From Gemmatimonadota bacterium (GTDB lineage: Bacteria; GCA-2686955): a DNA stretch of 64,000 bases. The position numbers and the translations under genes were made by a program. The notes under the pieces are model-generated. The model made no database searches and was not told the DNA's origin. It saw nothing but the letters and a program-made list of their open reading frames with translations. How positions within the stretch are numbered: the stretch's first letter is position 1; each line of letters opens with the position of its first letter. Below, in pieces: positions 22,306-32,018 of the stretch. The stretch spans positions 1 to 64,000 of the forward strand of contig NYZA01000143.1 in the NCBI GenBank assembly GCA_002686955.1, given 5' to 3'.

Positions 22306-24222
22306 TCAGCTCCGGAGCTGCTCCTCCAGAAGCACGCCCGCGATCGTCATGAAGTCCTTCTCCGTGACCAGGCCCACGAGGCGCTCGTTCTCGACCACGG
22401 GCAGACAGCCGACCCGGTGCTGCTTCATCAGCGCGATCGCCTCGAGTGTCGGCGTGCTCGGCGGCACCGACATCGGGTGCATCTGCATGATCTCGGAAAC
22501 CGGCACCGTCTTCGTATGGGCCTCGGCTAGGTTGCGCACCAGGAAGCGCAACAGAGATCGGTAGGTGACCAGGCCAACCAGGCGGTTCTCGTTGTCCTCG
22601 ACCGGAACGAAACGGATGTGCTGCCAGTCCATGAGGTTGACGACCAGATCGACGAGGTCGCCTTCGTTCACCGTGTAGAGGTCCGTGGACATGTACTGCT
22701 CGACCCGGGCGTAGTTCGATCTCCAGTCGCCGGCGTCGTCGATCGTGGCGAGACTCCACTCGTGAACCGGCTTGAGGCTCAGCTCTCGGGTGACGCAGCA
22801 GGCGGTGAGGGCGCTCAGCCGTTCGGCCTTCGTGCCCTTGCCCTTCATATCGGCATGGGACTGGATCACCCAGCAGGCACCCGTTTGACCGCTCGTGACT
22901 CGCGCCTCGATCACACCAAGGTAACGCTCGATGTCGTCCGCGTTGATGCCCGCGGTGGCGAGCCCCTCGCGCGCCATCGGGAGAAGCCGTTCCAAAACCA
23001 GCGTCAAGACTGGCTCCGGACTGCTCTTGTGAATCCACGATAGTTGCGCGCCCAATCCGAATCGGGCCGCCGCCAAGAAGTTCGCACGCGTGTCATCGAA
23101 ATCCATGACGCGCGTGATGTCGGCGTACTCCTCGGTCATCCCGGCCAGGAGCCCGAACCAGAATGCCGCATTCGCGACCTCGTCCACCGGTGTCGGTCCG
23201 GAGGGGATGTATCGGTTCTCGATTCGAAGATGTGGCTTGCCTTCGGAGATGCCGTAGCAGACGCGGTTCCAGCGGTATACGGTGCCGTTGTGGAAGCAAA
23301 GGGCGCGAAGCTGAGGCACACGACCGGCGGCGAGCTCCGCCAGCGCATCCTCCTCTTCCGCCGCGGCCATGAGCACGCGAAAACGGGCGATGTCCTCCTG
23401 GAAGATCTCCAGAACGGAGTCGTCCACCCACTTCGTCCCGAAACTGACTCGCGGCTGCACCGAGCGCTGGTGCGAACGGATGTTGCGGGTATCGATCGAT
23501 TGCTCGAAAAGCGCGATTCGGGTCTCCCGCCACAGCCGTTTGCCGAAGAGAAGCGGAGAGTTGCAGCAGATCGCCAGCAGCGGAGCGGCCGCGGCCTGCG
23601 CCATATTGTAGAGGCGGGCGAACTCGTTCGGTCCCACCTGGAAGTGGGTCTGAAAACTGGTGTTGCACGCCTCCAACATCACGGTGGCGTGGCTGATCAG
23701 AAGCTCGTCTACACCCTTGATCCGGAATTCGTAGTCTTTTCCGCGCAACGCGGTGAGCGACTCGTTCAGAGCCAAGTAGCGTGGGTTCTCGGTCATGTTC
23801 TCGAGACCGAGATGGGGGACGTCGAGCGTCGGCAGGATGCCGGTCATCACAACATCACCCCCCAGATCCCTCGCGGCCCCGCGGATCTTGCCCACGTACT
23901 CGGTGACCTGACGCTCGAGCGTACTCAGACAGGTGCCACCGAAGGTCAGAGGCGGCAGATTGAACTCGATGTTGAACTTCGCGAGCTCGGTAACGACGGC
24001 CGGGTCCTCAATACGTTCCAAAACCTGCTGGACCATCGGCGCCGGGCGCCAGTCGCGGTCGACCAGGAAGAGCTCCTGCTCGACACCGATTCGCCTCACA
24101 CCGGTCTCGAACGAGCCATCGATCAACATCCGTTCGAGCGCCCGCACATCGCTCAGGAGCTGCTTCATGAAGGTGCGGAGCTCCGAGGCTTCAAAACGGG
24201 CGGTCTGGGGGTGGTCACCCAT
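22306..24222 (-). CDS. GCS2-type carboxylate-amine ligase fused to a CBS-domain pair
   Basis: The 638-residue protein has a glutamate-cysteine ligase 2-like catalytic part (about residues 1-490): RRIGVEQELFLVD, FNIEFNLPP, FQTHFQVG, RIENRYIPSGPTPVDEVANA. It then has two CBS motifs: YMSTDLYTVNEGDLVDLVVN followed by RLVGLVTYRSLL, and MSVPPSTPTLEAIALMKQHR followed by RLVGLVTEKDFM. CBS pairs usually bind adenosine nucleotides and would make the ligase energy-sensitive. The substrate need not be glutamate plus cysteine; such homologues make varied amides. I chose ATG 24220-24222. Divergent from ubiX, with 189 bp between starts. Confidence 0.85.
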   Translation of the reverse strand: MGDHPQTARFEASELRTFMKQLLSDVRALERMLIDGSFETGVRRIGVEQELFLVDRDWRPAPMVQQVLERIEDPAVVTELAKFNIEFNLPPLTFGGTCLSTLERQVTEYVGKIRGAARDLGGDVVMTGILPTLDVPHLGLENMTENPRYLALNESLTALRGKDYEFRIKGVDELLISHATVMLEACNTSFQTHFQVGPNEFARLYNMAQAAAAPLLAICCNSPLLFGKRLWRETRIALFEQSIDTRNIRSHQRSVQPRVSFGTKWVDDSVLEIFQEDIARFRVLMAAAEEEDALAELAAGRVPQLRALCFHNGTVYRWNRVCYGISEGKPHLRIENRYIPSGPTPVDEVANAAFWFGLLAGMTEEYADITRVMDFDDTRANFLAAARFGLGAQLSWIHKSSPEPVLTLVLERLLPMAREGLATAGINADDIERYLGVIEARVTSGQTGACWVIQSHADMKGKGTKAERLSALTACCVTRELSLKPVHEWSLATIDDAGDWRSNYARVEQYMSTDLYTVNEGDLVDLVVNLMDWQHIRFVPVEDNENRLVGLVTYRSLLRFLVRNLAEAHTKTVPVSEIMQMHPMSVPPSTPTLEAIALMKQHRVGCLPVVENERLVGLVTEKDFMTIAGVLLEEQLRS

Positions 24223-24411
24223 GCGGACTCCTCGGCGAGAGACGCGTTGGGACGGAACTGCGATTGCGGGCCACTTGTGAAGTCTATCCGAATCGGGGCG
24301 CGGAGGATGGACCCTATGATGGGACGCAACCCGAGCTCGATGACGGGATCGGATCGGAAGCGCTACTCTCTTCATGCGCGCCGACCGATCCGCCTCATGA
24401 GAAAGAGCAGC

Positions 24412-24990
24412 ATGACCCGAGCGAAATCAACCCGACCCAGAATCGCGGTCGGCCTCTGCGGAGCTTCAGGCGCCCAGTACGGAGTCGAGCTTCTGCGGGC
24501 GCTCGCCGAGCGCGAGGTCGAGACCCATCTGATCGTGAGCCGGTGGGCCGATGCGGTTATGCGGACCGAAACCGACACCACCCTCGCCGAGCTGGAAGAT
24601 CTGGCGGAGGTGACCCACGACAATCACGACATGGCGGCTTCGCTTTCCAGCTCGAGCTTCCTCGTCGATGGAATGGTCATCATTCCGGCCTCGGTGAAGA
24701 CGGTCGCCGAAATCGCCGGTGGTTCGGCCGGCACTCTGATCGCGCGGGCCGCAGACAACATGTTGAAAACCCGCCGCAGGCTCATAGTTTGCATACGAGA
24801 AACCCCGATCAGTCTTCCTTGTATCGAAAACTTGCGCACCATCATGCTCGCCGGAGGCATCGTTGCTCCGCTCAGCCCGGGTTTCTACCATCGGCCGGCC
24901 GACCTCAGCGATCTCTACGCATTCATGGTTGGCAAAGTGCTCGATATGCTCTACATCGAGAACAGCCAGTTCCGCCGGTGGGGCGAGTAG
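24412..24990 (+). CDS. ubiX: UbiX-family flavin prenyltransferase
   Basis: The 192-residue protein has the UbiX start IAVGLCGASGAQYGVELLRA, a central IIPASVKTVAEIAGGSAGTL and the C-terminal signature RETPISLPCIENLRTIMLAG, then APLSPGFYHRP. UbiX attaches a dimethylallyl unit to FMN, making the prenylated FMN that UbiD decarboxylases need. It is the first gene of a five-gene operon whose next member is a UbiD. The cofactor maker and user are thus paired, and the pathway product (a prenyl phosphate) also feeds the cofactor. ATG 24412 follows an AAAGAGC purine stretch; ATG 24397 is an alternative. Confidence 0.93.
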   Translation: MTRAKSTRPRIAVGLCGASGAQYGVELLRALAEREVETHLIVSRWADAVMRTETDTTLAELEDLAEVTHDNHDMAASLSSSSFLVDGMVIIPASVKTVAEIAGGSAGTLIARAADNMLKTRRRLIVCIRETPISLPCIENLRTIMLAGGIVAPLSPGFYHRPADLSDLYAFMVGKVLDMLYIENSQFRRWGE

Positions 24991-25008
24991 GTCGGAGGGG
25001 AATCACAG

Positions 25009-26325
25009 GTGTCGCTCAGGTCATATCTCGATGAACTGGAACGTCTCAACGAGACCGAGGTTGTGACGACTATCGCCGACACTCGATTCGAGATCGCCGG
25101 AGTGTTGAAAGCGCTGGAGAACCGACCCGTACACTTCAGAAATGTACCGGGTTGTGAATTCAGTGTCGCCGGTAACCTACTGGCCTCCAAGGAAGGGATC
25201 GCCCGGCACTTTGGAATCGAAGTCGATCGACTGATACAGTGGATCGCCAAGGGAATCGACCAGCCCTCTCCCCCTCGGCGGGTTCGAAGCGCCCCTTGCC
25301 AAGAGGTCGAAATGAACGAGATCGACCTCGATCGGCTCCCGATCCTTCTTCATGGCCACGACGACGGTGGTCGCTACATCACGTCCGGTGTATGTGTCGC
25401 TCGCCACCCCGACCTCGGCCAGAATCTCGACTTCCACCGCGCGATGCAGATCGGAAAGGATCGGCTGGCGCTGCGGATCGTGCGGCATCGGGACTTCGAT
25501 CGTTTTCTCCGTGATCAGCAAGAGATGGATGTGGCCATCTGCATCGGCAACGGACCGAATGTGCTTCTCGCGGCGGCCACGAGTGTCGCTGGCGGCGGAG
25601 ATGAGCTCGAGATCGCCAATACGCTCGAAGCGCTCGACGTGACGCGCGCCAAGAGCGCCGACCTGTGGATCCCCGCCGATTGCGAGATCGTTTTGGAAGG
25701 CAAGGTGCGCCTCGACGACCGCGCATCGGAGGGACCCTTCGTCGATCTGACCGAGACGCTCGATGTCGTGCGCACCGAGCCGGTGATGACCGTCACGAGG
25801 ATCACGCACCGTCGCGACGCGATCTGGCAGGCTCTGCTGCCCGGAGGGCTGGAGCACAAGCTTCTGATGGGCATGCCGAGAGAGCCGACCATCTACAGGA
25901 ATGTGCGAGAAGCCGGTGTCAATTGTCGCGATGTGAGCATCACTCCAGGTGGCTGTTCCTGGCTGCATGCGATCATCAAGATTCGCAAGACCGGCGACGA
26001 TGATGTCGCAAAAGCCCTCGATGCCGCGTTCGCGGGGCACCGCAGCTTGAAACACGCCTTCGTAGTCGACGAAGACATCGATATTCTCGATCCCATTGCC
26101 GTCGAATGGGCTTTCGCAACCCGGTTTCAGTTCGATCGGGACGTGTATCCACGAGAGATCGAAGCGGGATCCAGCCTCGATCCTTCGGCGGAGCCGGGTA
26201 CGAAACGCACGGCGAAAGTGGGTTTCGATCTCACCGTCCCCTCCGGGACCGAAAGCGCACGCGAGAAGTTCGAGCATGCGCGCTTCCCCAGGGTTGATCT
26301 CAAGCGCTTCTTGGACAGGCAATGA
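25009..26325 (+). CDS. UbiD-family decarboxylase, probable anhydromevalonate phosphate decarboxylase
   Basis: The 438-residue protein is a UbiD-type prenyl-FMN decarboxylase, recognised by LPILLHGHDDGGRYITSGVC, MQIGKDRLALRI, ADCEIVLEGKV, SEGPFVDLTE and the RITHRRDAIWQALLPGG segment. Archaeal anhydromevalonate phosphate decarboxylases, which turn trans-anhydromevalonate 5-phosphate into isopentenyl phosphate, belong to this family and are of similar length. Specificity is inferred from the operon: the next genes encode a phosphomevalonate dehydratase-like pair and isopentenyl phosphate kinase. GTG start at 25009 with GGAGGGG upstream. Its stop overlaps the next start (ATGA). Confidence 0.85.
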   Translation: MSLRSYLDELERLNETEVVTTIADTRFEIAGVLKALENRPVHFRNVPGCEFSVAGNLLASKEGIARHFGIEVDRLIQWIAKGIDQPSPPRRVRSAPCQEVEMNEIDLDRLPILLHGHDDGGRYITSGVCVARHPDLGQNLDFHRAMQIGKDRLALRIVRHRDFDRFLRDQQEMDVAICIGNGPNVLLAAATSVAGGGDELEIANTLEALDVTRAKSADLWIPADCEIVLEGKVRLDDRASEGPFVDLTETLDVVRTEPVMTVTRITHRRDAIWQALLPGGLEHKLLMGMPREPTIYRNVREAGVNCRDVSITPGGCSWLHAIIKIRKTGDDDVAKALDAAFAGHRSLKHAFVVDEDIDILDPIAVEWAFATRFQFDRDVYPREIEAGSSLDPSAEPGTKRTAKVGFDLTVPSGTESAREKFEHARFPRVDLKRFLDRQ

Positions 26326-27500
26326 AGCTGATCGGCCACGAAGAATCGATGCTCTCCGGCGCCGAAGGAAAGGCCGCACGAAAGTGCATGCAGATCCTGA
26401 CCGCACTCGGCGAGATCTTCGGCGCGGAGAAGATGATCCCGGTCGAGACGGTTCAAATCTCGGGAGTTTCTTACGACAATCTGGGCGACGCGGGGCTGGA
26501 GTTCTTGCGAGAGCTGGCCGCCGACGGCCGCGCGAAGGTGCCGACAACACTCAATCCCGCCGGCATGGATACAGAGGACTGGAGGGCGCTCGGCATCCCC
26601 GAGGATTTCGCCCGAAAGCAGACCGAGGTCATCGCGGCGTTCACCAAGATGGGTGTCGATGCGACCTGCTCCTGCACTCCCTACCTCATCGGCAATCTTC
26701 CGAAGCCTGGCGCCCATATCGCTTGGGGCGAAAGCTCCGCCGTCACCTTCGCGAATTCGGTCCTCGGCGCTCGAACGAACAAAGAGGGCGGTCCTAGCAG
26801 CGTCGCGGCGTCGCTAACGGGATGCACGCCGGCATACGGCCTGCACCTCGACGAGCATCGTCGTCCGAAGGTGCGTGTGATGCTGGAGACCGATCTCGAA
26901 ACCAAGTTGGAGTTCGGAGCGTTCGGAAAGGCACTGGGGGAAGCGCTGGACGGCCGGATCCCCTTGATCGAAGGGATCTCGACGCGCCGCTGGGACCTTC
27001 TGAAAGCCCTCTGTGCCGCCTTCGCGACCTACGGAGGAGCCCCGATCTTCCATATCGCGGGGGGAACGAGTGAGCAGTGGAGCCCTCCGGCCGACGCGAT
27101 TTCGATCGGCCGAGATGAGATCGTCCGGGCCGCGCGGGCGCTCGATGATGGGGCGGATCGGGTCGATTTCGTCTTCTTGGGCTGCCCTCATCTCTCGCTC
27201 GATGAGCTGCGAGAGATCGCGGAGCTGCTCCGCGGCAAGACCGTCACGAAGGAGCTCTGGCTCGGCGTGGCACGGCGGATCAAAGAGCAGGCCGATGCGG
27301 CCGGAATCACCGAGATCTTGGTCGCCGCCGGAGCGAAGATGGCGTGTGATACCTGCCACGTCGTGGCGCCGCTGAGAGGTCGTTTCGATACCTTCGCGAC
27401 CAACTCGGCCAAAGGGATCTACTACGGTCGCTCTAAGAACCGCTTCAAAAGTGTGTTTCGAACAACTGAAGAGTGCATTCGACTCGCGACGGAGAAGTAA
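26322..27500 (+). CDS. Aconitase X large subunit, probable phosphomevalonate dehydratase large subunit
   Basis: The 392-residue protein belongs to the aconitase X (DUF521) catalytic family. Cysteines in TCSCTPYL (Cys118), FLGCPH (Cys288) and CDTCHVV (Cys345) are the expected ligands of a [4Fe-4S] cluster; HIAWGESSAVTFANS is the substrate-side motif. In archaea the large/small aconitase X pair dehydrates mevalonate 5-phosphate to trans-anhydromevalonate 5-phosphate. Other aconitase X enzymes are cis-3-hydroxyproline dehydratases, but coupling here to UbiD and IPK strongly favours the mevalonate role. It overlaps ubiD by 4 bp, and 3 bp separate it from the small subunit. Confidence 0.88.
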   Translation: MKLIGHEESMLSGAEGKAARKCMQILTALGEIFGAEKMIPVETVQISGVSYDNLGDAGLEFLRELAADGRAKVPTTLNPAGMDTEDWRALGIPEDFARKQTEVIAAFTKMGVDATCSCTPYLIGNLPKPGAHIAWGESSAVTFANSVLGARTNKEGGPSSVAASLTGCTPAYGLHLDEHRRPKVRVMLETDLETKLEFGAFGKALGEALDGRIPLIEGISTRRWDLLKALCAAFATYGGAPIFHIAGGTSEQWSPPADAISIGRDEIVRAARALDDGADRVDFVFLGCPHLSLDELREIAELLRGKTVTKELWLGVARRIKEQADAAGITEILVAAGAKMACDTCHVVAPLRGRFDTFATNSAKGIYYGRSKNRFKSVFRTTEECIRLATEK

Positions 27501-27503
27501 AGG

Positions 27504-27893
27504 GTGCGAGGCAGAATCGTCTACGATGGTGTCGCGGAAGGGCCGGCGCTGGTGTCGACCGAAGCGATCGGTTTCTACGGCGGTGTCGATCCCGATACGG
27601 GACGAATCGTCGAGGCCGGGCACCCGCTCGAAGGATCGTCGGTGGCGGGAAAAGTCCTGGTCTTTCCGCAAGGCAAGGGCTCCACGGTAGGCTCCTACAC
27701 ACTCTATCGGCTCCGCAAGAATGGAGTCGCACCGAGCGCCATGATCAACGAGGAGTGTGAAACGGTCGTCGCCGTCGGTGCGATCATCTCCGAGATCCCC
27801 TGCGTCGACCAGATCTCCTTGGAACGGATCCGAAGCGGTGACCTGGTTCGGGTGAGGGGTAGTGAAGTCATGGTCGAAAGGAGAGAAGGGTGA
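27504..27893 (+). CDS. Aconitase X small (swivel) subunit, probable phosphomevalonate dehydratase small subunit
   Basis: The 129-residue protein matches DUF126: EAIGFYGGVDPDTGRIVEAG, GKVLVFPQGKGSTVGSYTLY and a closing RIRSGDLVRV. The Ser of GKGSTVGS is the conserved catalytic residue in aconitase-type swivel domains. Its length is standard for the separate small subunit of two-subunit aconitase X enzymes. GTG start three bases after the large-subunit stop; the terminal TGA overlaps the next GTG. A 1:1 complex with the large subunit is expected. Confidence 0.9.
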   Translation: MRGRIVYDGVAEGPALVSTEAIGFYGGVDPDTGRIVEAGHPLEGSSVAGKVLVFPQGKGSTVGSYTLYRLRKNGVAPSAMINEECETVVAVGAIISEIPCVDQISLERIRSGDLVRVRGSEVMVERREG

Positions 27894-28708
27894 GCGCCTC
27901 CGTCGAAACGGTGATTCTGAAGATCGGCGGCAGCGTCATCACGAACAAGGACTCGAACCGATTCGAAATTCGTCGCGATGAAATCGGTCGCATCGCCTCC
28001 GAAATCGGTGCCGCGAGAGCCGCCAGGCCGATGCGCCTGGTCCTTGTACACGGTGCCGGCCCTTTCGGCCACACGATGGTGACGAACTACGGAATCGCCG
28101 AAGGGGTTGGGGTCCCGAAAGGAATTGAAGGCTTCGTTAGAACCCACAATTCGATGCAAGATCTCAACTACGTACTGATGTGTATCTTGCGCGACAAGGG
28201 GCTCCTGGGGTTTCCGATCCAACCCAGCGCCTGCATTCGCCAGAAGAGACGCGAGTTGATCTCGTTCGATACCGCGATCATCGCCGGTCTCCTCGACCTC
28301 GACGACGGAATCGTGCCGATTCTCTACGGCGACATGGTTCTCGACGAGTCGATCGGAGCAAGTGTCGTCTCGGGAGATGCGATCGTCGCTCATCTCGCGC
28401 CCGCTCTCCGAGCCGATCGAGTTCTTATGGGCACCGATGTCGAGGGCGTGTTCGAGGGCGATCCGAAGACCGATCCCGCCGCCGCATCGATCCCCACGAT
28501 CAGCGCCGAGAACCTCGATCGGGTGATGGAGTCGGTCCGCGGCGCGACGACGGTCGACGTCACCGGAGGGATGCAGAAGAAGCTGATCGAGATCCGCGAC
28601 AAGCTCGGCGGAATCGGGGTCAAGATCTTCGACGCGCTCGCACCGGGCAACGTCGAAAGGGCACTCCTGGGTCGCCAGGTAGGAACGGAAATCAGTCTCC
28701 GTCGGTAG
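27890..28708 (+). CDS. ipk: Isopentenyl phosphate kinase
   Basis: The 272-residue protein is an amino-acid-kinase-fold enzyme: ILKIGGSVITNK, LVLVHGAGPFGH with His61, VPILYGDMVLDE, VVSGDAIVAHLAP, VLMGTDVEGVFEGDPK, VDVTGGMQKKL. The His following the Gly-rich loop is the hallmark that separates isopentenyl phosphate kinases from other members of the fold; the enzyme makes IPP from isopentenyl phosphate and ATP. It is the last step of the archaeal mevalonate route and the last gene of this operon. Its 3' end overlaps the convergent O-antigen ligase gene by 17 bp. Confidence 0.92.
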   Translation: MSASVETVILKIGGSVITNKDSNRFEIRRDEIGRIASEIGAARAARPMRLVLVHGAGPFGHTMVTNYGIAEGVGVPKGIEGFVRTHNSMQDLNYVLMCILRDKGLLGFPIQPSACIRQKRRELISFDTAIIAGLLDLDDGIVPILYGDMVLDESIGASVVSGDAIVAHLAPALRADRVLMGTDVEGVFEGDPKTDPAAASIPTISAENLDRVMESVRGATTVDVTGGMQKKLIEIRDKLGGIGVKIFDALAPGNVERALLGRQVGTEISLRR

Positions 28709-30629
28709 TGGGCCCCTCCGAGCGGCGCATCGTCCAGATCAGTGCTCTTTCGACGAGATCGGCCTCCTGCCTCCGCCCTTCTTCGGAGTAGGACGCACCG
28801 ATTCGAGCCAGAAGTCTGTCGCGGGGTCCGCCCTTGCGGATCGCTTCGCGGTAGTCCCGGCGCGCTTCTGCTCTCTGACCGGAGATGGACAGAAGATTCG
28901 CACGCGTGGCGAGGAGCTCGTGCAGCGGTGCATGCGACAAGAAAGGGAGGACTCCGCCCGAATCGTCGGGCCAACGCTCATGTAGATCGAGCATGCGGTC
29001 CACGATCGCCAGCGCTCTGGTCGTATCCCCCGCGTCGAGAACCGATTCGCCCCAGACACCCCATAGCTCGTCGTCGTAGCAGAGGGGCGCGGCGCCGGCG
29101 GCTACCATCCTCGCCTCGCCTGGGCGACCGGCGCGCAGTAGAGCGAATGATAGATGCAGCGGCAAGCGGGCGTAGAGAGGATCGAGGGAGTGGAGATCCT
29201 CGTAGGCCGACACCGCCTCGGTCCAGGCGCGAAGCCGCTCGTGCGCAATCCCGATTCGGTAGAGCAGGCGGGGACTCCGGGGCTCCACGATGCGGGCCCG
29301 CTCGAGATGTGGGAGGGCTTCCGCCGGGCGGCCATGAATCAGGTGCCTTTCCGCGGCAAGCAGCTCCCCCTCCGTCCCCAGGGTGAAGCGCAGCTCTCGC
29401 GCACCGAGAAAGAGCGCCACCAGCCCGATCGGCGCCAGGATCGCGGCGCGCCCGATGCGGGTAGGGGTCCACGCGCGAGCGGATGGAGCGCCGAGCGCAC
29501 CGAGGACGCCGACCATTCCCCAAAAAGGCAGCGCCACCGAGAACCAGCGCAGATTCGGACTCGCGAGCCCATCGACCGCGACGCCCGCGATCCCGGCGAG
29601 GAGCGCCGCGCGCCAGATCGCCTTCTCGTCCCCCTCGTCCCGATCTCGCATCGCCCGCCGGATGAGCAACAAGGCGAGCATCGCTAGGAGCCCGAGTCCG
29701 ACGATCCCGAGCTCCGCGGCGACCTCCAACGCCTCGCAGTGCGCGTGGCCGGTGTTCGCCGTCAGATGGAGAAGGGGCGATTCCGGGGGACGCGCCGCCT
29801 GGATCGTTCTCGTGAAAGAGCCGAGGCCTTGGCCCAGCCTGGGTGCCTGCTCCACGAGCGAGAGAGCGCCGCGCCAGATCGTGCGCCGAACGAGCGCCGT
29901 TCCCGCGGGCCGAACGAAAAGCGCCCATGCCGCGGCGGCGGATCCGAACGCGGCCAGGGCCGCCAGGAGCGAGGTTCGCGGGTGGCGGGGATCCGCGAAG
30001 GCCTGCTGCACCAGAAGTGCCACCACCAGCCCCCCCAGCGCGGCCTCCGATCTTTGCGCGACGAGCACGATCAGCATGACTGCCAGAGCCCAATGGCCGA
30101 TCCGCTTGCCGCGGGCACGGACCAGTGCGATCGGAATCCAGGGCAGGATCGAAGCGGCCAGCACATTCGGATTGCCCGCGGCGGCCCCCATAGATCGAAT
30201 CCCGTCCCAGAAACGGGGAAAGGGAAGGGTCGCCAACACCGGAAGAACTACCAAAAAGGGGCGCAACATCGACCGGGGCTCGATCCCGAGCAGCGCCACA
30301 AGAGCGAAAGCGATGCCGCTGTGGTGGAGAAGCAGGGCTTGCCGCACCCGCGGATCGACCGGCGCGCCAAAGGCGCGAATCCAGCCCCATGCGCCGCAAG
30401 CGAGCAGCATAAACGCGATGGCGCGCGATGCCCCCCGCGCTACATCTTTGCGCATCGCCGCTCCGAGGCAGAGAGCGCCGACACCCAAGGCCGCGATCGC
30501 ACCTTTGATGCGAACCGGCTCGAGATGCTCCGGATGGTACGCGACCGCAACCGTCGCCATCAGCAACGCGGCGGCGAGGCCGAGGCGATCGGTGGCGCTC
30601 TTCGTACTCGATTCCTTCGATTTGAACAT
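28692..30629 (-). CDS. O-antigen ligase/polymerase-family membrane protein with C-terminal TPR region
   Basis: The 645-residue protein has about ten hydrophobic segments and a Wzy_C-like periplasmic loop (RRTIWRGALSLVEQAPRLGQ, then GLGSFTRTIQ... and NTGHAHCEALEVAAELGIVG, with the conserved HNxxLExxxExG-like pattern). After the last helix (about residue 415) a TPR-like helical region follows (LLAAERHLIHGRPAEALPHL, ERARIVEPRSPRLLYRIGIA). Such proteins ligate or polymerise O-antigen, teichuronic or glycoprotein glycans. It is not next to other glycan genes, but several lie between 35 and 48 kb. Confidence 0.82.
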   Translation of the reverse strand: MFKSKESSTKSATDRLGLAAALLMATVAVAYHPEHLEPVRIKGAIAALGVGALCLGAAMRKDVARGASRAIAFMLLACGAWGWIRAFGAPVDPRVRQALLLHHSGIAFALVALLGIEPRSMLRPFLVVLPVLATLPFPRFWDGIRSMGAAAGNPNVLAASILPWIPIALVRARGKRIGHWALAVMLIVLVAQRSEAALGGLVVALLVQQAFADPRHPRTSLLAALAAFGSAAAAWALFVRPAGTALVRRTIWRGALSLVEQAPRLGQGLGSFTRTIQAARPPESPLLHLTANTGHAHCEALEVAAELGIVGLGLLAMLALLLIRRAMRDRDEGDEKAIWRAALLAGIAGVAVDGLASPNLRWFSVALPFWGMVGVLGALGAPSARAWTPTRIGRAAILAPIGLVALFLGARELRFTLGTEGELLAAERHLIHGRPAEALPHLERARIVEPRSPRLLYRIGIAHERLRAWTEAVSAYEDLHSLDPLYARLPLHLSFALLRAGRPGEARMVAAGAAPLCYDDELWGVWGESVLDAGDTTRALAIVDRMLDLHERWPDDSGGVLPFLSHAPLHELLATRANLLSISGQRAEARRDYREAIRKGGPRDRLLARIGASYSEEGRRQEADLVERALIWTMRRSEGPTTDGD

Positions 30630-30686
30630 CCGACGGGAATCCTACCCCGGAACCCTCCCCCCGACCGCGAGATGTATGCTCCCCGC

Positions 30687-32018
30687 ATGGCCCATGGACT
30701 CCTAGTCGAATCGCTCGATCCCTCCGGCAACGGCGCACGCTTCGGCATTCGCCCCGGCGATCGCCTCGTTTCGCTCAACGGCTCCGAAGTGAACGACGAA
30801 ATCGACCTGCTCTTCCATTTCGAAAGCGACGAATCGAACGAGCTCGAATTCGCGAGAGAAGGCGATCGCAGATCGGTGACGTTGCCGGCGGGTGATGCAG
30901 GCATCGAATGGCGGGAATCGGAGATCCGCCTTTGCAGCAATAAATGTGTCTTCTGCTACGTGCATCAGAATCGCAAGGGGATGCGCAAGGCGATCTATGT
31001 GATGGATGAAGACATCCGCCTCTCCTTCCTCTACGGCGGCTTCACCACACTCTCGAATCTGACCGACGCCGACCGAAACCGAATCATCGCCCAACGTCTG
31101 TCCCCACTCTACGTATCGGTTCACGCCACCGACGAGCTGGTGCGCGCATCGATGCTCCGCGCACGGTCCCGCGCCAATCCGACCGCGATCCTCGACGATA
31201 TCGACTTTTTCGTGGAAAAAGGCATCGAGCTTCACACGCAGGCGGTGATCTGCCCCGGCATCAACGACGGCGAAGTGCTCGAGCGCACGATCAACGACCT
31301 CGCGGCGCGGCGCCCGGTCCTGCGCAGCCTGGCCTGCGTACCGGTGGGGCTGACCGGTCATCGCAAGAACCTGCCCCTCATGCGCCCTTTCGACACCGAA
31401 TCGGCGCGTGTCGAGATTGCCCGCATCGAACGACTCGCGCGGGAGCTCGACGAACCCTTCGTGTACGCGGCCGATGAGTTCTACTGCATCGTCGGCATCG
31501 AACCACCGCCGCTCGAGCACTACGGCGATTGGGAGCAGCTCGACAACGGTGTCGGCCTGATCCGTTACTGGGAAGAGATCGTGCGCGAGGCGAACGAAGC
31601 TCTGATCGCGCCTCGGTCGCCGCGTCGCGTTCTCGCCCTCACGGGTGTGTCGGCTCGGTCTTTCGTCGGAGACAACCTCGCACCGGCCATTTCCGACACT
31701 CTCGAAATCCGGGTCGCATCGGTGCGCAATACCCTCTTCGGTGAATCGGTTACTGTCGCGAATCTGCTGAGCGGCGAAGATCTGCTGCGAGGGATAGAAA
31801 GGAGCAGAGCAAGCGGCTTCGATCCCGACCTCGTTCTGCTGCCGCCGAAGATCTTGAACGAGGACCAGCTTTTTCTCGACGATCTGCCCTTCGGGGAGGC
31901 CCGTGCGCTAGCCGCTACCGAGCTACTTCCGGCGCCCGAAGATCCCTCGCTTCTCGCCGAGGCTCTCGGCTATCGGGGTCCGGTATTCGACAAGGGAGAA
32001 AGCGAGAAAGGCCGGTAG
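30687..32018 (+). CDS. PDZ-radical SAM-DUF512 protein
   Basis: The 443-residue protein starts with a PDZ-like segment (ARFGIRPGDRLVSLNGSEVN), then a cluster motif CSNKCVFCYVHQ and YVSVHATDE, followed by the DUF512 tail (YAADEFYCIVG, ALTGVSARSF, LLSGEDLL near the end). This arrangement defines a family widespread in anaerobic bacteria whose reaction is unknown. The CxxxCxxC motif binds the radical SAM [4Fe-4S] cluster. ATG 30687 is preceded by a second ATG at 30672. The last 49 bp overlap the convergent lipoprotein gene. Confidence 0.88.
   Translation: MAHGLLVESLDPSGNGARFGIRPGDRLVSLNGSEVNDEIDLLFHFESDESNELEFAREGDRRSVTLPAGDAGIEWRESEIRLCSNKCVFCYVHQNRKGMRKAIYVMDEDIRLSFLYGGFTTLSNLTDADRNRIIAQRLSPLYVSVHATDELVRASMLRARSRANPTAILDDIDFFVEKGIELHTQAVICPGINDGEVLERTINDLAARRPVLRSLACVPVGLTGHRKNLPLMRPFDTESARVEIARIERLARELDEPFVYAADEFYCIVGIEPPPLEHYGDWEQLDNGVGLIRYWEEIVREANEALIAPRSPRRVLALTGVSARSFVGDNLAPAISDTLEIRVASVRNTLFGESVTVANLLSGEDLLRGIERSRASGFDPDLVLLPPKILNEDQLFLDDLPFGEARALAATELLPAPEDPSLLAEALGYRGPVFDKGESEKGR

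Follow-up and report, generated by a model that had tools for sequence, protein, structure and literature searches.

A five-gene bacterial operon proposed to encode an archaeal-type lower mevalonate pathway

For a long time, descriptions of the archaeal mevalonate pathway confined it to archaea. The bacterial operon reported here resembles the modified mevalonate pathway of Aeropyrum pernix (Hayakawa et al. 2018, as cited in PMC10040528 and PMC13001223) in combining the large and small subunits of a phosphomevalonate dehydratase (PMDh), a UbiD-type decarboxylase and an isopentenyl phosphate kinase (IPK), with the same cluster cysteines and, elsewhere in the genome, an archaeal-type HMG-CoA synthase beside a thiolase and an OB-fold gene. 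Unlike in the archaeal pathway, the host is bacterial, five lower-pathway genes including ubiX are gathered in one operon, and the HMG-CoA reductase of the source genome matches the TIGR00532 (class II) model.

Among bacteria, an archaeal mevalonate pathway is attributed to 'Candidatus Promineifilum breve', a member of the Chloroflexota as confirmed by its taxonomy, by Kanno et al. 2024, as cited in a 2026 review (ref. 64 in PMC13001223); going by that citation, the present case is alike in placing the archaeal pathway in a bacterium and differs in lineage. The alternative mevalonate pathway of the Chloroflexi, described in Roseiflexus castenholzii, makes use of a mevalonate phosphate decarboxylase and an IPK (PMC3857490). 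It shares with our locus a bacterial IPK without a phosphomevalonate kinase, but AcnX and UbiD are found here and mevalonate phosphate decarboxylase there. Finally, the hydroxyproline dehydratases among bacterial aconitase X (AcnX) proteins (PMC8184944) have the same fold and a two-part architecture (type IIa), whereas their substrate-site residues and cluster ligands differ and they belong to a separate clade.

Organization of the operon

The window, that is the whole stretch of 64,000 nucleotides that was analysed, carries at 24412-28708 five genes on the + strand in the order UbiX, UbiD, AcnX large, AcnX small and IPK (Table 1). UbiX and UbiD are separated by an 18-bp gap, UbiD and AcnX large overlap by ATGA, the two AcnX genes are 3 bp apart and AcnX small overlaps IPK by GTGA. 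Five tightly coupled genes with these last three junctions had been proposed originally, and both their order and their coupling are borne out by the coordinates and by the Pfam and NCBIfam matches; likewise, the predicted cysteines Cys118, Cys288 and Cys345 and the IPK His61 are all seen in the sequences. As both flanking genes lie on the opposite strand, the transcription unit consists of exactly these five genes. A sigma-70 scan found no promoter-like site in the stretch scanned. Only 36 bp separate the start codons of ubiX and of the divergent gene, and downstream of the convergent neighbour lies a gene for a radical SAM protein with PDZ and DUF512 domains (29739-32018).

Genes, order and conservation are direct observations. 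Indeed, all five genes recur with unchanged order in another member of the family, a genome of a second genus, at 61-71% protein identity; being kept across genera, the arrangement is not due to chance.

Table 1. Locations of the operon genes, their neighbours and the upper-pathway gene rows (window positions unless a contig is named)
Feature	Location	Strand	Profile match or remark
Glutamate-cysteine-ligase-like domain fused to two CBS domains	22306-24375	opposite	divergent from ubiX
UbiX-type flavin prenyltransferase, 192 aa	24412-24990	+	Pfam Flavoprotein 9e-38
UbiD	25009-26325	+	GTG start; Pfam UbiD 5e-55
Aconitase X large, 392 aa, proposed PMDh large subunit	26322-27500	+	Pfam AcnX 2.7e-140, 468 bits
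Aconitase X small (swivel), 129 aa	27504-27893	+	Pfam AcnX swivel 4e-34, 117 bits
Isopentenyl phosphate kinase (IPK), 272 aa	27890-28708	+	Pfam AA_kinase 5e-38
O-antigen-ligase/TPR gene	28692-30629	opposite	convergent neighbour of the operon
Type 2 IPP isomerase (IDI2), mevalonate kinase, HMG-CoA reductase	source genome, contig C256, L031:5480-8857		in a row
Archaeal-type HMG-CoA synthase, thiolase, ChsH2/OB-fold gene	source genome, contig C232, L055:2425-5041		in a tight row

Upper pathway and other routes to IPP

The source genome (G000) is a metagenome-type assembly of 270 contigs that is 84.5% complete, and the second family genome (G001) is 83% complete. When the former was searched for the upper mevalonate pathway, HMG-CoA reductase, mevalonate kinase and HMG-CoA synthase were all found (Table 1). 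The mevalonate kinase exceeds its profile cut-off, and the HMG-CoA synthase reaches 527 bits with TIGR00748 (cut-off 353). The latter has a thiolase within about 20 bp, followed directly by the ChsH2/OB-fold gene, an arrangement familiar from archaea. The same row adjoins genes reading as phosphoglycerate mutase and leucyl aminopeptidase. The second family genome, 83% complete, yielded no full HMG-CoA synthase and no IDI2, and its mevalonate kinase is truncated by a contig end; the gaps in HMG-CoA synthase and IDI2 may be due to incompleteness.

Could IPP be made by another route, whether the MEP pathway, the classical mevalonate pathway or a phosphomevalonate decarboxylase with IPK, and the operon have a side function? 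An incomplete genome leaves room for this, and mixed gene sets do exist, as in the distant genome G455, in which a PMDh-type AcnX occurs together with a mevalonate diphosphate decarboxylase-like gene beside UbiD. We nevertheless consider it very unlikely in view of the pattern of presence and absence observed directly across the pathway. Dxr and IspH were found in neither family genome (84.5% and 83% complete), in line with the original proposal, whereas they were found in G025, in G041 and in MEP-using control genomes; the chance that both genes were lost from both assemblies is estimated at about 0.0007 if independent, with 16% and 17% of the genomes missing. Furthermore, as in an archaeal-type pathway, the source genome has HMG-CoA synthase, HMG-CoA reductase and mevalonate kinase, and neither phosphomevalonate kinase nor mevalonate diphosphate decarboxylase was found in it at 84.5% completeness. 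Its only match to the Pfam GHMP-kinase model is the mevalonate kinase, the same model detecting three mevalonate (di)phosphate decarboxylases (35-40 bits) and scoring one example phosphomevalonate kinase marginally (22 bits). Both family genomes being incomplete, these absences are not absolute. As none of Dxr, IspH, phosphomevalonate kinase and mevalonate diphosphate decarboxylase turned up, the cell probably depends on the archaeal-type pathway alone for its IPP, and the lower part of this pathway is, judging from the genes, very probably the route that this bacterium uses.

Enzymes of the lower pathway

The AcnX pair shows the trait of type IIb PMDhs, namely separate large and small subunits. 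The top PDB match of the large subunit is the Thermococcus kodakarensis PMDh (7CNR, 319.6 bits), the hydroxyproline dehydratases reaching about 199 bits; the small subunit exceeds the cut-off of NCBIfam NF003046, and its top PDB match is chain B of the same entry (E=4e-36). The diagnostic residues can be read directly from an alignment of 23 sequences, in which C118, C288 and C345 fall on archaeal PMDh columns and correspond to C122, C297 and C356 of the A. pernix PMDh, residues that mutagenesis identified as the ligands of a [4Fe-4S] cluster (PMC10040528). Cysteine sites A, 1 and 2 are thus filled by C118, C288 and C345, and site C of the type I enzymes is occupied by Val347, with no cysteine; the type I row of this alignment is PDB 7D2R, which appears to be an engineered S449C/C510V variant (PMC8184944), so that its residues at the C288 and V347 columns are not wild type. 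A stretch NKEGGPSS/NREGGPS[SA], reading NKEGGPSS in the window AcnX, is common to this protein and the T. kodakarensis PMDh and is missing in the hydroxyproline-type and the other bacterial AcnX proteins of the alignment. In the tree of large subunits, a single group (99/98) unites the window and the second family genome with the T. kodakarensis PMDh (a PDB entry, the one sequence representing archaeal PMDh) and with eight genomes from another bacterial phylum, and the hydroxyproline dehydratase falls into a separate group (100/99), one AcnX of which adjoins proline racemase-like and proline dehydrogenase-like genes.

The pair therefore sides with the archaeal enzyme and away from hydroxyproline dehydratases, as had been anticipated. 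Bacterial AcnX members first became known as hydroxyproline dehydratases (PMC8184944), and the hydroxyproline model is the only strong AcnX model in NCBIfam, to which the window protein scores 276 bits, far under the cut-off of 700. That the pair is such an enzyme is nonetheless extremely unlikely: the archaeal PMDh leads the hydroxyproline dehydratases by 120 bits among PDB matches, the IPK shares the operon, the genome has a full upper mevalonate pathway and, decisively for our rejection of this function, the residues are PMDh-type, with Val347 at site C, and the tree splits the window from the hydroxyproline group. We propose that the AcnX pair is a phosphomevalonate dehydratase, its activity and the [4Fe-4S] type of its cluster being predicted from the sequence.

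The UbiD protein matches the Pfam UbiD, UbiD_C and UbiD_N domains and TIGR00148 (331.9 bits), and its R144, E241 and D246 occupy the catalytic R-E-D/E positions. In a tree built without archaeal AMPD, it clusters with UbiDs from five other bacterial genomes that are encoded close to PMDh-type AcnX, and E. coli UbiD, 6h6v and AnInD fall elsewhere. Operon context and this clustering with AcnX-linked UbiDs suggest that it is an anhydromevalonate phosphate decarboxylase. UbiX passes the NCBIfam cut-offs of NF004685 (201.9 bits, cut-off 188) and TIGR00421 (192.7 bits, cut-off 108.9), has PAD1 (6qlg, E=5e-45) as top PDB match and is 70% identical to its counterpart at the corresponding position of the second family genome. 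The substrate of UbiX is dimethylallyl phosphate, or the diphosphate in some homologues. The attractive idea of the original prediction that a product of the pathway supplies this substrate remains plausible, but the loop is indirect, because the pathway gives IPP and then DMAPP through IDI2, and the UbiX substrate is one or two steps removed from the pathway.

The IPK scores 216.3 bits against the NCBIfam IPPK_Arch equivalog (cut-off 120), has its active-site His61 in HGAGPFGH (pattern HGxGxFGH), and its PDB matches are IPKs (top 3ll9, E=2e-47). In the IPK tree, the window groups with the second family genome and genome G189 (97/97 with G189), the tree being poorly resolved outside these three genomes. 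In G189, which is without an AcnX match, HMG-CoA reductase, mevalonate kinase and IPK are adjacent (L135:5798-8671).

In the proposed route, mevalonate 5-phosphate would be supplied by the thiolase, OB-fold protein and HMG-CoA synthase of contig C232 together with the HMG-CoA reductase and mevalonate kinase of contig C256. The AcnX pair, with a [4Fe-4S] cluster presumably held by Cys118, Cys288 and Cys345, would dehydrate it to trans-anhydromevalonate 5-phosphate, which UbiD would decarboxylate to isopentenyl phosphate using prenyl-FMN made by the adjacent UbiX. IPK would then phosphorylate isopentenyl phosphate to IPP, from which the type 2 isomerase of contig C256 would yield DMAPP. We regard it as highly probable that the operon and the upper genes constitute such an archaeal-type mevalonate pathway to IPP in a bacterium, with enzyme activities assigned by homology. 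The reading first given to the operon is hence supported, on the side of the MEP genes as well as on that of AcnX phylogeny.

Host, distribution in bacteria and meaning

A metagenome-type assembly of 270 contigs permits misbinning, but that the contig is archaeal DNA placed in a bacterial genome is next to impossible and was rejected on the gene content of the window, which also has an AcrB/HlyD/outer-membrane efflux set, NamZ, FapA and O-antigen-ligase-like genes, all the more as the contig with IDI2, mevalonate kinase and HMG-CoA reductase also bears a gene that we take, by eye, to encode ribosomal protein bL21 and the operon is found again in an independent genome of the family. A nucleotide-sugar dehydrogenase gene is present in the window as well. 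The host is a Gram-negative bacterium, not an archaeon.

Among 386 bacterial genomes, close AcnX matches are limited to the two family members, and the IPK cut-off is passed in eight. The family comprises two genomes among the relatives searched, all other relatives sharing the domain only; the host lineage is thus sparsely sampled. A scan with two N-terminal peptides as patterns returned the sister genome and nine distant Firmicutes-type loci and is uninformative on distribution. Outside this lineage, AcnX proteins of the PMDh group occur in at least eight of 400 genomes of the phylum of genome G061, which is probably Chloroflexota, since among bacterial phyla with mevalonate genes IPK has been reported only there (PMC3857490). 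In four of these eight, UbiD and both AcnX genes lie close to UbiX, and in a fifth they lie close to IPK; the UbiDs of these clusters are 45-58% identical to that of the window. All five genes together were found at none of the loci read in this phylum.

Two further arrangements were encountered. In G455, a mevalonate diphosphate/phosphomevalonate decarboxylase-like gene (L170:5586-6509; TIGR01240, 249 bits) points away from the UbiD gene in a UbiD-AcnX-AcnX-UbiX cluster, with which it is divergent, so that the lower mevalonate pathway may exist there in two forms. Genomes G025 (L034:9649-11324) and G310 (L100:6778-8439) carry another kind of bacterial AcnX pair, with an NREGAEST motif (Watanabe types IIc-f), an upstream glyoxalase-like gene and a downstream acyl-CoA synthetase-like one.

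The initial claim of novelty, that no well-described bacterial operon holding all five genes was known, was too strong, given the Chloroflexota case published in 2024 and the four-gene clusters elsewhere. The operon represents a further bacterial lineage with the archaeal pathway, not the first. What appears to be new is this further lineage, the five-gene packing that unites ubiX and IPK, and the archaeal-type upper pathway in the same genome. It is likely that a bacterial lineage outside the Chloroflexota depends entirely on an archaeal-type mevalonate pathway complete with its upper half, and that a five-gene operon for dehydratase, decarboxylase, cofactor-producing enzyme and kinase brings its own prenyl-FMN supply.

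Another lineage is thereby added to the one published bacterial case, as cited in the 2026 review. Together with the clusters in the probable Chloroflexota, the operon suggests repeated entry of the pathway into bacteria or its transfer between phyla, and this spread bears on the evolution of mevalonate pathways. Furthermore, the compact operon is a ready-made cassette for a low-ATP lower pathway and offers a bacterial system in which to probe the link of UbiX to an essential UbiD.
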